Shown piece by piece: positions 15,203-60,440 of a stretch of DNA of 64,000 nucleotides. Position numbers and translations under genes: made by a program. Origin of the DNA: Bacteroidia bacterium (GTDB lineage: Bacteria > Bacteroidota > Ignavibacteria > SZUA-365). The stretch covers positions 1,723,131-1,787,130 of the forward strand of contig JAOSJT010000001.1 of NCBI GenBank assembly GCA_027493955.1, written 5' to 3'. Below the pieces are notes generated by a model. That model did not search any database. It was not told the DNA's origin and was given only the letters and a program-made list of their open reading frames with translations. Each line of letters begins with the position of its first letter. Position 1 is the stretch's first letter.

Positions 15203-16573
15203 TCACCGATGAAAATACATCTTGTACTCGAACGGATGCGGCATGGTGGCGATGGCGTGGACCTCTTCGCGCTTGGTCTTGATCCATTGGCGGATGAGGG
15301 ATTCGGGGAAGACGCCGCCGCGAAGGAGGAAGTCGCAGTCCTTTTCGAGGGCGTCGAGGGCCTCGGCAAGACTGCGCGGGAGGTAGTTCAGGCCGTCCTT
15401 CTCGAAGACGTTGCCGTCAATGGGACCAAAACCTTCGGCGCGGGGATCGATTTTGTTGACGATGCCGTCTATGCCCGCCATGAGCATGGCCGCGAGCATG
15501 AGATAAGGATTGGCCGTGGCGTCGGGCGGACGGTACTCGAGTCGGGTTTCCCTGGGATCGTACACATAGCGCGGGATGCGCACGCAGCTTGACCTGTTGG
15601 CCTGGCTGAAGGTGAGCGCTACCGGAGCCTCGAAACCGGGGACGAGCCGTTTGTATGAGTTCGTGGAAGGATTCGTAAAGGCGGCCAGGGCGTCCGCGTG
15701 CTTGAGCAGTCCGCCGATATAGTACAGACCGGTCTCGTTGAAATTCGCGTATTCACCCTGCTTGTAGAAGATATTTTCGCCGTTTTTCGTCAGGAACTGA
15801 TGCACGTGCAAGCCGCTGCCCGCCTGCTGATACATGGGCTTGGGCATGAAGGTGACCTCGAGTCCCTGCTCGGCCGCCTGACTGAAGAGTATGTACTTGG
15901 CGAGGGTGATGTTGTCGGCGGATTTGAGCAGCGGTTCGAAGAGGAATTCGATTTCCTGCTGTCCGCGCTCACCCACTTCGTGGTGATGGTATTTGACGGG
16001 AATGCCGGCCTGTTCGAGCAGGCGGCAGGACTCGTCGCGGTAGTCGTCGTAAAGGTCGAAAGGATTGCAGGCGTGATAGGCGTTCTGGAAAAATTCCTCG
16101 TCGTGATTCACTTTGTAAAAGGACGAAGACGTACGGGTGTCGAATTCCACGCTGGAAAAAATGTAGTACTCGAGTTCGGGTCCCCAATGCGTCAGATCGG
16201 CGATGTCGAGGGATTGCAGCAGTGCTTCGGCCTGACGGGCGACCCAGCGCACGTCCTCGGGAAAGCGCGAGCGCTCCGCGTCGGTGAGGAAGACGTTCGT
16301 GAAACAGGTGAGCGTGGGGCGGTCGCGGAAGAGATCGATTTGCACGGTGGAGAGATCGGGCTTCTGCACCATATCGCTGCTCTCGACTTTGGCGAAGCCG
16401 AAGCTCGAACCGTCGAAACCCACGCCCTGCTCGCAGAGCAAATCGAGGGTGTTGTCGCGGACGGGCAGCGTGATGTGATGCAGTCGTCCGACGAGATCAA
16501 TCGTTTTGAGGTCGATGAATTCGATGCTGTGTTCCCTGATCATCTGCTTGACGCGTTCGAGGTCGGCGGCCAT
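15203..16573 (-). CDS. glnA: Glutamine synthetase, type I
   Basis: A 456-residue enzyme that makes glutamine from glutamate, ammonia and ATP. Type I hallmarks: GVGFDGSSFGFAKVESSDM, FMPKPMYQQAGSGLHVHQFL (metal and glutamate site), FTNPSTNSYKRLVPGFEAPV, YSQANRSS-like FSQANRSSCVRIP (ATP-binding region) and LEYRPPDATANPYLMLAAML. The adenylylation Tyr motif of proteobacterial GSI-beta enzymes is not visible, so this looks like the GSI-alpha type, usually regulated by feedback. ATG 16573 follows AGGAGA. It converges on the defence island across a bidirectional terminator; its 5' side faces the large palindromic array. Confidence 0.95.
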   Translation of the reverse strand: MAADLERVKQMIREHSIEFIDLKTIDLVGRLHHITLPVRDNTLDLLCEQGVGFDGSSFGFAKVESSDMVQKPDLSTVQIDLFRDRPTLTCFTNVFLTDAERSRFPEDVRWVARQAEALLQSLDIADLTHWGPELEYYIFSSVEFDTRTSSSFYKVNHDEEFFQNAYHACNPFDLYDDYRDESCRLLEQAGIPVKYHHHEVGERGQQEIEFLFEPLLKSADNITLAKYILFSQAAEQGLEVTFMPKPMYQQAGSGLHVHQFLTKNGENIFYKQGEYANFNETGLYYIGGLLKHADALAAFTNPSTNSYKRLVPGFEAPVALTFSQANRSSCVRIPRYVYDPRETRLEYRPPDATANPYLMLAAMLMAGIDGIVNKIDPRAEGFGPIDGNVFEKDGLNYLPRSLAEALDALEKDCDFLLRGGVFPESLIRQWIKTKREEVHAIATMPHPFEYKMYFHR

Positions 16574-16682
16574 AGGTTCTCCTGGCGATGTTGCGGTGCG
16601 TGTTCTCTCCCCGAAGACGAAAGTCCTCTAGGGACATTAAGCTACGAAACAGCGGAACAAAACTCAACTTGTGATTTTGGCG

Positions 16683-19600
16683 CGCCGCGGGAATCGGTGC
16701 GCGGATTGCGCGGATCGGGACGGATTCTCGCGGAAGCTTTTTTCGAGGTCATATTCGAAAGGATTTCGGTACGGAAGTCGAAAAATTTCCTCCGCGGAAA
16801 TCCGTGTTCCATCCGTGAAATCCGTGTACCGATCGATTCGCGGCAGGGATCGGTGCGCGGATTGCGCGGATCGGGACGGATTCTCGCGGAAGCTTTTTTC
16901 GAGGTCATATTCGAAAGGATTTCGGTACGGAAGTCGAAAAATTTCCTCCGCGGAAATCCGTGTTCCATCCGTGAAATCCGTGTACCGATCGATTCGCGGC
17001 AGGGATCGGTGCGCGGATGACGCGGATCGGGGCGGATTCTCGCGGGAGCTTTTTCGATGTCGTACCCGAAAGGATTTCGGTGCGGGAGTCGAAAAATTTC
17101 CTCCGCGGAAATCCGTGTTCCATCCGTGAAATCCGTGTACTGATCTGTTCGCGGCAGGAATCGGTGCGCGGATTGCGCGGATCGGGACGGATTCTCGCGG
17201 AAGCTTTTTTCGAGGTCATATTCGAAAGGCTTTCGGTGCGGAAGTCGAAAAATTTCCTCCGCGGAAATCCGTGTTCGAGCCTTGAAATCCGTGTACTGAT
17301 CTATTCGTGGCAGGAATCGCTACGCGGATGACGCGTATCGGGGCGGATTCTCGCGGGAGCTTTTTCGATGTCGTACCCGAAAGGTTTTCAGTGCGGGAGT
17401 CGAAAAATTTCCTCCGCGGAAATCCGTGTTCGAGCCTTGAAATCCGTGTACGGATCTGTTCGTGGCAGGAATCGGTGCGCGGATGACGCGTATCGGGGCG
17501 GATTCTCGCGGGAGCTTTTTCGATGTCGTACCCGAAAGGTTTTCGGTGCGGGAGTCGAAAAATTTCCTCCGCGGAAATCCGTGTTCCATCCGTGAAATCC
17601 GTGTACCGATCGATTCGCGGCAGGGATCGGTGCGCGGATGACGCGGATCGGGGCGGATTCTCGCGGGAGATTTTTTCGATGTCGTACCCGAAAGGTTTTC
17701 GGTGCGGGAGTCGAAAAATTTCCTCCGCGGAAATCCGTGTTCGAGCCTTGAAATCCGTGTACTGATCTATTCGTGGCAGGAATCGCTACGCGGATGACGC
17801 GTATCGGGGCGGATTCTCGCGGAAGCTTTTTTCGAGGTCATATTCGAAAGGCTTTCGGTGCGGAAGTCGAAAAATTTCCTCCGCGGAAATCCGTGTTCGA
17901 GCCTTGAAATCCGTGTACTGATCTATTCGTGGCAGGAATCGCTACGCGGATGACGCGTATCGGGGCGGATTCTCGCGGGAGCTTTTTCGATGTCGTACCC
18001 GAAAGGTTTTCAGTGCGGGAGTCGAAAAATTTCCTCCGCGGAAATCCGTGTTCCATCCGTGAAATCCGTGTACCGATCGATTCGCGGCAGGGATCGGTGC
18101 GCGGATGACGCGGATCGGGGCGGATTCTCGCGGGAGCTTTTTCGATGTCGTACCCGAAAGGATTTCGGTGCGGGAGTCGAAAAATTTCCTCCGCGGAAAT
18201 CCGTGTTCCATCCGTGAAATCCGTGTACTGATCTGTTCGCGGCAGGAATCGGTGCGCGGATTGCGCGGATCGGGACGGATTCTCGCGGAAGCTTTTTTCG
18301 AGGTCATATTCGAAAGGATTTCGGTACGGAAGTCGAAAAATTTCCTCCGCGGAAATCCGTGTTCCATCCGTGAAATCCGTGTACTGATCTGTTCGTGGCA
18401 GGAATCGCTGCGCGGATGGCGCGGATCGGGGCGGATTCTCGCGGAAGCTTTTTTCGATGTCGTACCCGAAAGGTTTTCGGTGCGGGAGTCGAAAAATTTC
18501 CTCCGCGGAAATCCGTGTTCCATCCGTGAAATCCGTGTACTGATCTGTTCGCGGCAGGAATCGGTGCGCGGATGGCGCGTATCGGGGCGGATTCTCGCGG
18601 GAGATTTTTTCGATGTCGTACCCGAAAGGTTTTCGGTACGGAAGTCGAAAAATTTCCTCCGCGGAAATCCGTGTTCCATCCGTGAAATCCGTGTACGGAT
18701 CTGTTCGTGGCTGGAATCGCTGCGCGGATGACGCGTATCGGGGCGGATTCTCGCGGAAGCTTTTTCGATGTCGTACCCGAAAGGTTTTCGGTACGGAGTC
18801 GAAAAATTTCCTCCGCGGAAATCCGTGTTCCATCCGTGAAATCCGTGTACGGATCTGTTCGTGGCAGGAATCGGGGCGCGGATGGCGCGGATCGGGGCGG
18901 ATTCTCGCGGGAGCTTTTTCGATGTCGTACCCGAAAGGTTTTCGGTGCGGGAGTCGAAAAATTTCCTCCGCGGAAATCCGTGTTCCATCCGTGAAATCCG
19001 TGTACTGATCTGTTCGTGGCAGGAATCGGTGCGCGGATGGCGCGGATCGGGGCGGATTCTCGCGGCAGCCTTTTTCGATGTCGTACCCGAAAGGTTTTCG
19101 GTGCGGGAGTCGAAAAATTTCCTCCGCGGAAATCCGTGTTCGAGCCTTGAAATCCGTGTACTGATCTATTCGTGGCAGGAATCGCTGCGCGGATGACGCG
19201 TATCGGGGCGGATTCTCGCGGGAGCTTTTTCGATGTCGTACCCGAAAGGTTTTCGGTGCGGGAGTCGAAAAATTTCCTCCGCGGAAATCCGTGTTCCATC
19301 CGTGAAATCCGTGTACTGATCTGTTCGTGGCAGGAATCGGTGCGCGGATGACGCGTATCGGGGCGGATTCTCGCGGGAGATTTTTTCGATGTCGTACCCG
19401 AAAGGATTTCGGTGCGGGAGTCGAAAAATTTCCTCCGCGGAAATCCGTGTTCCATCCGTGAAATCCGTGTACTGATCTGTTCGTGGCAGGAATCGGTGCG
19501 CGGATGGCGCGGATCGGGGCGGATTCTCGCGGCAGCCTTTTTCGATGTCGTACCCGAAAGGTTTTCGGTGCGGGAGTCGAAAAATTTCCTCCGCGGAAAT

Positions 19601-19795
19601 CCGTGTTCGAGCCTTGAAATCCGTGTACTGATCTATTCGTGGCTGGAATCGCTGCGCGGATGACGCGTACCGGGGCGGATTCTCGCGGAAGCTTTTTTCG
19701 ATGTCGTACCCGAAAGGTTTTCGGTGCGGGAGTCGAAAAATTTCCTCCGCGGAAATCCGTGTTCGAGCCTTGAAATCCGTGTACGGATTCACAGG
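16683..19795. repeat. Tandem array of about 20 imperfectly palindromic units, period 155-156 bp
   Basis: The marker CCGCGGAAATCCGTGTT recurs 20 times with its CGGAAA at 16795, 16951, 17106, 17262, 17417, 17572, 17728, 17884, 18039, 18194, 18350, 18506, 18662, 18816, 18971, 19127, 19282, 19438, 19594 and 19750. In each unit the left arm (GCGGAT-x-x-CGCGGATCGGG, CGGATTCTCGCGG) is an imperfect reverse complement of the right arm (CCGCGGAAATCCGTGTT, CCGTGAAATCCGTGTAC), so a unit can fold into a long hairpin. Subtypes are mixed: TTCCATCCGTG versus TTCGAGCCTTG; GGTCATATTC versus TGTCGTACCC. No gene: the open frames on both strands are by-products of a period close to a multiple of three. It fills the space between the divergent genes glnA and the small membrane protein at 19875. 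Confidence 0.97.
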
Positions 19796-20384: not shown

Positions 20385-21320
20385 ATGGAAACAATAGAGA
20401 TACAGCAAGCAGACGGTACAAAAGAACGCGTCCGGCGTCCGGACTGGCTGAAAGTGAAAGTGCCTCTGGGCACGAAATTTTCGGAGATCCGCCATCTCGT
20501 GGATGCACAGCGGCTCAACACGGTTTGCGAAGACGCGCGCTGCCCGAACATGGCCGAGTGCTGGAATCGCGGCACGGCTACGTTCATGATTCTGGGCGAC
20601 GTCTGCACGCGCTCCTGCGGCTTCTGTTCGGTGAAAACCGGGCGTCCCTACGACCTCGACCTCGATGAGCCCCGCCGCGTGGCCGTAGCGGTGGCCGAGA
20701 TGAAGCTTCGCCATGCAGTGATCACGTCCGTGAATCGCGACGAGTTGCCTGACGGCGGCGCCGGCATTTTCGCAGCCACCATTCGCGCTATTCGCAATCG
20801 CGTACCGGGCTGCAACATCGAAGTGCTGACGCCCGATTTCCAGGGCAAGGCTGCGGCGATACAGACGGTGATTGACGCGCGGCCCGACGTGTTCAATCAC
20901 AACACCGAAACCGTACCGCGTCTGTACCGCCGTGTGCGTCCCCAAGCCAAATACCAGCGCTCGCTGGAGCTGTTGCGCATGTGCAAGGAGCAGGGACTGC
21001 GCACGAAAACCGGCATCATGCTGGGTCTCGGCGAGACCGACGATGAGATTCTGCAGGTCATGAAGGATCTCCGCACCGTACGCGTGGACATCATGACGCT
21101 CGGGCAATATTTGCAGCCGACGAAGGAACATCTGCCTGTAGAGCGCTATGTCACGCCGGCAGAGTTCGCCCGCTGGAAAAGCACAGGCCTGGAACTCGGC
21201 TTCGCGCATGTCGAGTCGGGTCCCCTGGTGCGGTCGAGTTACCATGCGGATGAACAAACCAATGACGATTGCCTGCCCGCCGAAGCATCACAGGATAATG
21301 GCACAATCGTCGGTACATGA
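20385..21320 (+). CDS. lipA: Lipoyl synthase
   Basis: A 311-residue radical SAM enzyme that inserts two sulfur atoms into protein-bound octanoyl groups to make lipoyl cofactors for 2-oxoacid dehydrogenases and the glycine cleavage system. Both iron-sulfur sites are present: Cys48, Cys53 and Cys59 (auxiliary cluster, [12 protein letters not shown]) and Cys74, Cys78 and Cys81 (CTRSCGFC, radical SAM cluster). The C-terminal [12 protein letters not shown] carries the RSSY motif that ligates the auxiliary cluster. Length is normal. No lipB partner in the window. The gene is bracketed by two palindromic arrays, the second starting 20 bases after its stop. Confidence 0.96.
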
Positions 21321-21340: not shown

Positions 21341-22412
21341 AGCTACGCGGATTGCGCGGATGAATACGGATTTACGCGGATAAGAATTTTTTCGGCTCCG
21401 GTACCGAAAATTTTTCGATTACGACCTCGGGAAAATTCCCCGCGATAATCCGCATCAATCCGTGTCAACCTCGTACCAATTCCAAGCGGAAACTCGTTCG
21501 TACGCGGATTGCGCGGATGAATACGGATTTGCGCGGATAAGAATTTTTTCGGCTCCGGTACCGAAAATTTTTCGATTACGACCTCGGGAAAATTCCCCGC
21601 GATAATCCGCATCAATCCGTGTCATCCTCGTACCAATTCCAAGCGGAAACTCGTTCGTACGCGGATTGCGCGGATGAATACGGATTTACGCGGATAAGAA
21701 TTTTTTCGGCTCCGGTACCGAAAATTTTTCGATTACGACCTCGGGAAAATTCCCCGCGATAATCCGCATCAATCCGTGTCATCCGCGTACCAATTCCAAG
21801 CGGAAACTCGTTCGTACGCGGATTGCGCGGATGAATACGGATTTACGCGGATAAGAATTTTTCGGCTCCGGTACCGAAAATTTTTCGATTACGACCTCGG
21901 GAAAATTCCCCGCGATAATCCGCATCAATCCGTGTCATCCTCGTACCAATTCCAAGCGGAAACTCGTTCGTACGCGGATTGCGCGGATGAATACGGATTT
22001 GCGCGGATAAGAATTATTTCGGCTCCGGTACCGAAAATTTTTCGATTACGACCTCGGGAAAATTCCCCGCGATAATCCGCATCAATCCGTGTCATCCGCG
22101 TACCAATTCCAAGCGGAGCTCGTTCGTACGCGGATTGCGCGGATGAATACGGATTTACGCGGATAAGAATTTTTTCTGCTCCGGTACCGAAAATTTTTCG
22201 ATTACGACCTCGGGAAAATTCCCCGCGATAATCCGCATCAATCCATGTCATCCGCGTACCAATTCCAAGCGGAAACTCGTTCGTACGCGGATTGCGCGGA
22301 TGAATACGGATTTACGCGGATAAGAATTTTTTCGGCACCGGTACCGAAATTTTTTGGATTACGCCATCGGAAAAATTCCCCGCGATAATCCGCATCAATC
22401 CGTGCTATCCGC
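21341..22412. repeat. Tandem array of seven imperfectly palindromic units, period 156-157 bp
   Basis: Unit starts TACGCGGATTGCGCGGATGA fall at 21344, 21501, 21658, 21815, 21971, 22127 and 22284. Left arm TACGCGGATTGCGCGG, AATACGGATTTGCGCGG; right arm CCGCGATAATCCGCATC, AATCCGTGTCATCCGCGTA, an imperfect reverse complement of the left arm. The centre (TTTTCGGCTCCGGTACCG, AAAATTTTTCGATTACG) is again partly symmetric. Units differ by few substitutions (for example CCTCGTAC versus CCGCGTAC). It shares the GCGGATT words and the size with the array at 16683 but not its detailed sequence. Confidence 0.95.
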
Positions 22413-22535
22413 AGACCAATTCACCAGGGAAGCCTCCGCGATAATCCGCATCAATCCGTGCTATCCGCAGACCAATTCACCAGGGAAGCCTCCGCGATAA
22501 TCAGCATCAATCCGTGGCATCTGCGGACCACCCCC
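22377..22535. repeat. Shorter 56-bp tandem repeat at the edge of the array
   Basis: CGCGATAATCCGCATCAATC, CGTGCTATCCGCAGACC, AATTCACCAGGGAAGCCTC recurs with period 56 (two near-identical copies and a degenerate third). It is made from the right arm of the 157-bp unit only. Confidence 0.8.
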
Positions 22536-45522: not shown

Positions 45523-45644
45523 TTCAGGGAGGGGAATGAACGCAAAAACGCCTATTCGACTACGCTCGGTAGGCGCAAAGACTCTGAGAAAGAGTGACGC
45601 TGCCCACGATCCTGCTTTTTGCACCAGACAAGCAGTCCTGGTAA

Positions 45645-45755
45645 CGCCCACTTTTGCAGCACATGTGGGTGGTTCATGAAACGCCCACTTTTGCAGCACA
45701 TGTGGGAGCTTCATGGAACGCCCACTTTTGCAGCATATGTGGGAGCTTCATGGAG
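45645..45755. repeat. Three tandem copies of a 37-bp repeat
   Basis: Copies begin at 45645, 45682 and 45719 with CGCCCACTTTTGCAGCAC, ATGTGGGAGCTTCATGGAA as consensus. CCCAC and GTGGG within each copy can pair, and CACATGTG is itself palindromic. Not a CRISPR: the copies abut with no spacers. Confidence 0.85.
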
Positions 45756-45902
45756 ACGCCATTCCCTTCTCAGTGAGGGATCGCGGTGGTGAAGGCCGTG
45801 ATAACGGGTACGGCAATGCGGACCGGACGGGCGCCCCTGCTCGCAAGGGGTCTGGGGTGTTGGCGGGAGATCGTGACTGCGGATAATAGCAGGTGGAGAG
45901 GG

Positions 45903-59532: not shown

Positions 59533-60440
59533 GCCAAGCCCGAAGGGCGACACCTCCTGTACCCCCCAACGGCAGCTGGGGGCCGCACGCCACTCCTGCC
59601 GATCCCAAGCCCGAAGGGCGACACTTGGAGAGGTAAAGGGTGAAGGGTGAAGAGCCCGAAGGGCGACACTTCCACCAACCCCACACGTGAGTGTGGGGGG
59701 GCACACGCGACAGCAGCCACGACCTCCCAAGCTCAGCCTAGGCTGACGACACCTCCTGTACCCCCCCAACGGCAGTTGGGGACCGCACGGCACTCCTGCC
59801 GATCCCAAGCCCGAAGGGCGACACTTGGAGAGGTAAAGGGTGAAGGGTGAAGGGTGAAGGGTGAAGGGTGAAGAGCCCGAAGGGCGACACTTCCACCAAC
59901 CCCACACGTGAGTGTGGGGGGGCACACGCGACAGCAGCCAAGACCTCCCAAGCTCAGCCTAGGCTGACGACACCTCCTGTACCCCCCCAACGGCAGTTGG
60001 GAGCCGCACGCCACTCCTGCCGATCCCAATCCCGAAGGGCGACACTTGGAGAGGTAAAGGGTGAAGGGTGAAGAGCCCGAAGGGCGACACTTCCACCAAC
60101 CCCACACGTGAGTGTGGGGGGGCACACGCGACAGCAGCCACGACCTCCCAAGCTCAGCCCAGGCTGACGACACTTCCTCTAACCCCCAACGGCAGCTGGG
60201 GGCCGCACGTCACTCCTGCCGATCTCAAACCCGAAGGGCGACACTTGGAGAGGTAAAGGGTGAAGGGTGAAGGGTGAAGAGCCCGAAGGGCGACACTTCC
60301 ACCAACCCCACACGTGAGTGTGGGGGGCACACGCGACAGCAGCCACGACCTCCCAAGCTCAGCCTAGGCTGACGACACCTCCTTTACCCCCCAACGGCAG
60401 CTGGGGGCCGCACGCGACAAGCACCCAACGCGCCAAGCCC
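59526..60440. repeat. Complex tandem repeat of palindromes, period about 200-211 bp, four copies
   Basis: The marker CCCACACGTGAGTGTGGGG is found with its CACACGTG at 59692, 59903, 60103 and 60309. Each unit also contains CCAACGGCAGCTGGGG, TCAGCCTAGGCTGA and several AAGCCCGAAGGGCGACAC. Unit length varies with the number of a 7-base word (AAGGGTG, one to five copies). Frames in all directions give CRPSGL/SPFGLG peptides that are not proteins. Confidence 0.93.

Follow-up and report, generated by a model that had tools for sequence, protein, structure and literature searches.

A tandem array of twenty long palindromes upstream of glnA in a Bacteroidota chromosome and its relatives across the phylum

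Long palindromes are usually unstable in bacterial chromosomes. What, then, are twenty of them doing head to tail upstream of a glutamine synthetase gene: do they mark a special site of the chromosome, do they serve the genes next to them, or are they a selfish element that was multiplied in place? The window, i.e., the whole stretch of 64,000 nucleotides that was analysed, corresponds to positions 1,723,131-1,787,130 of the single 5,237,942-base contig that forms the complete genome of an Ignavibacteria-like member of the Bacteroidota. A sequence-only reading of the window had proposed gyrase or nucleoid-protein binding, a replication or segregation site, attenuation of read-through, and a selfish palindrome family as possible roles. 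Here, we favor, with a probability of about 0.72, a non-autonomous palindrome resembling MITEs and ERIC elements that inserted upstream of glnA, was amplified in tandem, and is neutral or selfish.

The array itself, described by the sequence-only reading as twenty copies of a 155-bp palindrome between glnA and a membrane gene, was confirmed by TRF (period 156, also 311; 19.9 copies; 93% matches; score ~5100), by parsing on the unit start (20 starts, with spacings of 154, 155, and 156 bp), and by folding. Each unit consists of an imperfect palindrome of ~142 bp and a spacer of ~13 bp (Table 1). Since the unit lengths are mixed, the reading frame shifts along the array, and a coding repeat was rejected: open reading frames of up to 383 amino acids cover parts of it, and no frame is open throughout.

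Table 1. Coordinates of the features around array 1 (positions in the window)
Feature	Position	Strand	Description and basis
glnA, glutamine synthetase	15203..16573	-	Pfam PF00120/PF03951
TAGYTTAATRTCCCT-like box	16630..16648	-	Conserved 5' of glnA in relatives; compared by eye (L050-L057)
Array 1	16690..19788	+	20 direct head-to-tail units of 154-156 bp; TRF, unit parse, folds, alignment
Unit 3 of array 1	17002..17146	+	Folds among the best; same sequence as unit 10
Small hydrophobic ORF, 114 aa	19875..20219	+	Divergent from glnA
lipA, lipoyl synthase	20385..21320	+	Pfam LIAS_N / Radical_SAM
Array 2	21344..22422	+	7 units of ~157 bp, same palindrome family; after lipA

As single-stranded DNA, good units of array 1 reach folding energies between -39 and -43 kcal/mol (z between -5.3 and -5.8); for units 2 and 3 (z -5.8 and -5.3) none of 200 shuffles folded as well, while unit 5 is weaker (z -2.75). 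Among the tandem arrays sampled in stretches of the same chromosome, the doubled consensus unit of array 1 has by far the strongest fold (z ~-20). The claim that each unit can fold on itself holds for most units, with reduced strength in about one third, because in 7 of the 20 (u04, 05, 07, 08, 16, 19, and 20) CGAGCCT replaces CCATCCG and disrupts several pairs of the outer stem. The units share a structure of 62 pairs, in which 92.9% of the cells pair and 44 pairs are invariant. In the remaining 18, one side varies or the pair is broken; a compensatory, two-sided change is seen in no pair, as expected of recent local amplification. The inner block (ATATTC or GTACCC) and the block at 121-126 (CCATCCG or CGAGCCT) occur in all four combinations, and distant units can be identical (u03 and u10) or differ at one site (u16 and u19). 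The units are indeed mosaics of a few variants, which supports repeated unequal crossing-over or conversion. Local amplification explains array 1, given these mosaic units, the missing internal compensation, and the fact that unrelated non-coding units of 138 bp (17 copies) and 37 bp (many copies) were also amplified in tandem in this genome.

Several other repeats of the chromosome were recorded on the way. The array of 138-bp non-coding units (L129:12365-14759; G000:C1:~4929864-4932258) comprises 17.4 copies with 98% matches and strong hairpins (z -5.8), and is a separate, apparently young palindromic array. Units of 37 bp resembling TTCATGGAACGCCCACTTTTGCAGCACATGTGGGAGC are repeated in tandem at several loci (L135:17866-18780, L140:10190-12200, and window 45643-45760). 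A 7.3-kb array of ~96 units with period 76 and 70% match (G000:C1:2002521-2009852; L137:2521-9852) has a consensus containing GATTTGAAAGCAAACTACAAC, and its conserved part resembles a CRISPR repeat with spacers. The only Y1 (IS200-like) transposase gene is followed by clustered CCCCACACTTACGTATGGGG hairpins (L130:9639-10954; G000:C1:~4215638-4216953), and similar repeats lie at window 59632-60415.

Array 1 is not the only representative of its palindrome in this chromosome. The units of array 2 are 71-77% identical to those of array 1, on either strand because the units are palindromes, and a pattern for one arm gave 65 matches in the 5.24-Mb chromosome versus 0 for a reversed control. The family occupies at least 13 further loci. 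Among these are complete single palindromes at ~1.827, 3.165, 3.207, 4.277, 4.921, 4.927, and 5.190 Mb and a group of three at 5.017 Mb; at 3.435 and 4.369 Mb, one arm occurs in related tandem units. A covariance model (R1), built from ten copies of this chromosome, recovered complete palindromes at ten or so loci besides the arrays. In the alignment of these ten copies, the ends are strongly conserved, roughly ATCGGTGCGCGGATNACRCGGATNNNNRCGGATTNTCGCGGA, and mirrored at the opposite end, while the middle is variable, yet largely self-complementary. The arms carry three or four CRCGGAT motifs, 9-11 bp apart and opposite their complements, in the manner of a ladder. Members of the family are ~85-190 bp long and non-coding, with inverted repeats of ~45 bp that extend into a full palindrome. 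As its relatives are scattered singly between genes, array 1 looks like a multiplied selfish element and not like a special chromosomal site.

Searches with R1 within the Bacteroidota found relatives, at E<=0.01, in at least 34 of 61 genomes, the own genome included (best match outside it 1.7e-18), and in at least 33 of 148 genomes of a phylum sample at E<=1e-5, with 21 candidates per genome scored. At least 31 strand matches were obtained in genome G006 of the same family and at least 45 in G059, numbers that differ from the true copy numbers because each palindrome is usually matched on both strands and the number of scored candidates was capped. According to rough ORF calls, the copies are mainly intergenic. 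Their ends come in species-specific versions (AATAGAACRCGGAT in G059, AATGGGAACACGGAT in G006, GAACCTGGATTACGC in G042), and seven related genomes contain at most pairs of nearby copies. In a combined alignment (A3), pairing reaches 91%, and two-sided change is seen in 157 cells, compared with 73 in shuffles and a maximum of 28 in slid controls; these figures lean towards structure because A3 had been fitted to the fold and every palindrome was counted on both strands. The direction of the result is clear, in that the arms co-vary between genomes. This compensation may reflect selection for the hairpin or copying from arm to arm, as template switching gives the same pattern. No similar DNA was found in plasmid and phage collections, nor the exact pattern in viral contigs, and neither the open-access literature nor a literal search of it for the motif yielded a description of the family. 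Dispersed copies in the genome and the phylum make the selfish palindrome family the best supported of the roles proposed from the sequence alone.

Two observations concern individual genomes. At L241:1021-1171 of G059, the loop of a CGGAT-ladder palindrome harbors a second palindrome of unrelated sequence (CCCCGTGGAATAA...TTATTCCATGGGG). In G006, a cluster alternates palindromes with small ORFs; integron attC sites were rejected as its explanation because inspection by eye did not reveal the attC core, and two of the ORFs read in translation as unrelated ordinary proteins, one glyoxalase-like and one a membrane protein.

A non-autonomous mobile element would account for the dispersal of single copies between unrelated genes, the species-specific versions, and the absence of coding capacity. 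Visual inspection of the sequences flanking 43 copies revealed no consistent target-site duplication, and the palindromy often extends into the flanks. As neither a target duplication nor an empty site or a mobilizing gene was identified for the family, we infer its mobility from its dispersal. One copy in G059 directly abuts a truncated Y1 tyrosine-transposase gene, which looks like an insertion into that gene. On the preferred reading, one copy would have entered the region upstream of glnA and another the region downstream of lipA; judging from general knowledge of palindromes, template slippage would have duplicated the hairpin-prone repeat in tandem, and unequal recombination would then have expanded and homogenized it into the present mosaic.

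At glnA, this insertion would have come to lie beyond the conserved box. The sequence upstream of glnA reads GTTTCGTAGCTTAATGTCCCT in the window and TTGCATAGTTTAATATCCCT, AATGTGTAGCTTAATATCCCT, and similar at the corresponding place in relatives, and the box, presumably a promoter-related element, sits intact between glnA and array 1. The statement that the array occupies the divergent promoter region is correct in placing it between divergent genes; it is imprecise in that the conserved glnA box lies outside the array. No tandem array like array 1 was present at the glnA loci of the relatives examined. The closest named glnA matches come from metagenome-assembled 'Bacteroidetes' and 'Ignavibacteria' genomes, the best with 86% identity. 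The 114-aa hydrophobic ORF has no Pfam match, and no Rfam family exceeded its gathering threshold in the window.

Among the functional alternatives, a transcriptional insulator or bidirectional attenuator between glnA and the divergent membrane gene is suggested by the position and by the strong RNA folds of the units (-56 to -83 kcal/mol each). We consider it unlikely, since the terminator scan found one terminator-like site in the region versus 6.5 expected in shuffles, and none in array 1, so that the proposed attenuation of read-through is not supported. Moreover, the glnA box is outside the array, and single copies elsewhere have no clear preference for divergent genes, judged from rough ORF calls that are too crude for orientation bias. 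Slightly less probable still is a functional landmark whose copy number would matter and that gyrase, a nucleoid protein, or a segregation factor would bind. The 20 co-oriented copies and the regular 9-11 bp spacing of CRCGGAT would suit such a landmark, and a precedent is offered by BIMEs, which are described as protein-binding sites (PMC2817692). However, with dnaA at 3.568 Mb, array 1 at 1.740 Mb lies, counted from dnaA, at ~70% of the distance to the antipode and thus near neither the likely origin nor the antipode (GC skew in the sampled stretches is too noisy for placing the terminus). A location at the origin or terminus was therefore rejected, and a replication or segregation site finds no support. 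The other arrays and the single copies are scattered, the relatives examined do without an array upstream of glnA, and stem-breaking variants are tolerated, all of which speaks against a landmark of any of these kinds.

Other readings concern the nature of the repeat. A more far-reaching one, though improbable, is an undescribed, phylum-wide mobile family of CRCGGAT ladders, whose mover would read several motifs per arm and whose copies would in this lineage have become satellite-like tandem arrays with a structural role in the chromosome. It is very doubtful that the palindromes are REPINs whose mobility depends on a tyrosine transposase of the REP-associated or IS200-like type. Dispersed hairpins, the presence of Y1 transposases in 48 of 61 genomes, and the description of terminal-inverted-repeat families adjoining such genes (PMC3733652) speak for it. 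Against it, an R1 copy lies within ~1.5 kb at only 3 of 41 Y1 loci (one weak, one distant, and one against the broken Y1 gene); the single Y1 gene of the own genome is closer to IS200 than to RAYT and adjoins the different hairpin repeat CCCCACACTTACGTATGGGG; and the base of the palindrome lacks a GTAG tag. A RAYT or IS200 link was rejected on these grounds. Least credible of all is an assembly artefact: long repeats are error-prone in assembly, but the genome is complete in a single contig, the units vary in length and at 25 palindrome columns, with the variants following no periodic order, and a second, distinct array is found 1.6 kb away.

The amplified, neutral or selfish palindrome does face further objections. 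Selection for a functional hairpin could lie behind the compensatory changes seen between genomes, and the persistence of 20 largely intact copies, despite the expected instability of palindromes, could hint at selection as well. Positive evidence for a cellular role of array 1 was seen neither among terminators and Rfam families nor in plasmids, phages, or the literature. Remaining site-specific roles are possible, and unsupported; most likely, array 1 is neutral or selfish, and any influence that it has on read-through or local supercoiling would be incidental. Bearing on palindrome tolerance, for which absence of SbcCD was considered as a reason, the own genome encodes a divergent Mre11/SbcD-like phosphoesterase below the curated SbcD cut-off (L315:406-1788; G000:C1:~2.679 Mb), and no other SbcD match was found there.

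A widespread family, unnamed as far as found, is added here to the intergenic palindromes of bacteria, with a testable signature in the motif ladder and the co-variation of its arms. Such an element is also seen here to form a satellite-like array of 20 long palindromes in a bacterial chromosome, and this 20-fold tandem amplification is unusual. The family offers a natural experiment on palindrome spread and cellular tolerance. It probably also breaks short-read assemblies of the group, three copies in G059 being located at contig ends.

Known systems resemble the family in part. Intergenic VNTR arrays of the MIRU type likewise consist of intergenic tandem units, and their copy number is likely variable; long palindromes with dispersed relatives that are palindromic too are not known among MIRU units. 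REPs are 20-40 bp palindromes with a GTAG or CGTC tag, the GTAG type being linked to RAYT (PMC3733652). REPs, REPINs, and BIMEs are similar to the present units in being intergenic hairpins that are sometimes clustered and, in BIMEs, mosaic, whereas the present units are ~142 bp long, have the ends ATCGGTGCGCGGAT..., carry no such tag, and had no RAYT association at the Y1 loci examined. MITEs such as RUP, Correia (NEMIS), and RPE are short inverted-repeat elements of <200 bp, and RUP is known to insert into transposase genes (PMC2229807), as suspected for the G059 copy. The family agrees with MITEs in being short (<~300 bp) and non-coding with terminal inverted repeats and in having multiple dispersed copies per genome; it differs in showing neither a target duplication in the flanks inspected nor a parental IS among the Y1 transposases examined. 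ERIC (also IRU or RU-1) elements are 127-bp non-coding palindromes of enterobacteria, mostly intergenic and without a proven dedicated transposase (PMC2229807). The comparison with them covers the architecture, because the present host is an Ignavibacteria-like member of the Bacteroidota; sequence and phylum differ, and the arms of the present family are motif ladders. ERIC copies are single and are not known to form 20-copy tandem arrays. In both cases a non-coding palindrome of ~130 bp is dispersed mostly between genes with no proven dedicated transposase, and the present family is apparently a new, widespread, MITE/ERIC-like one.
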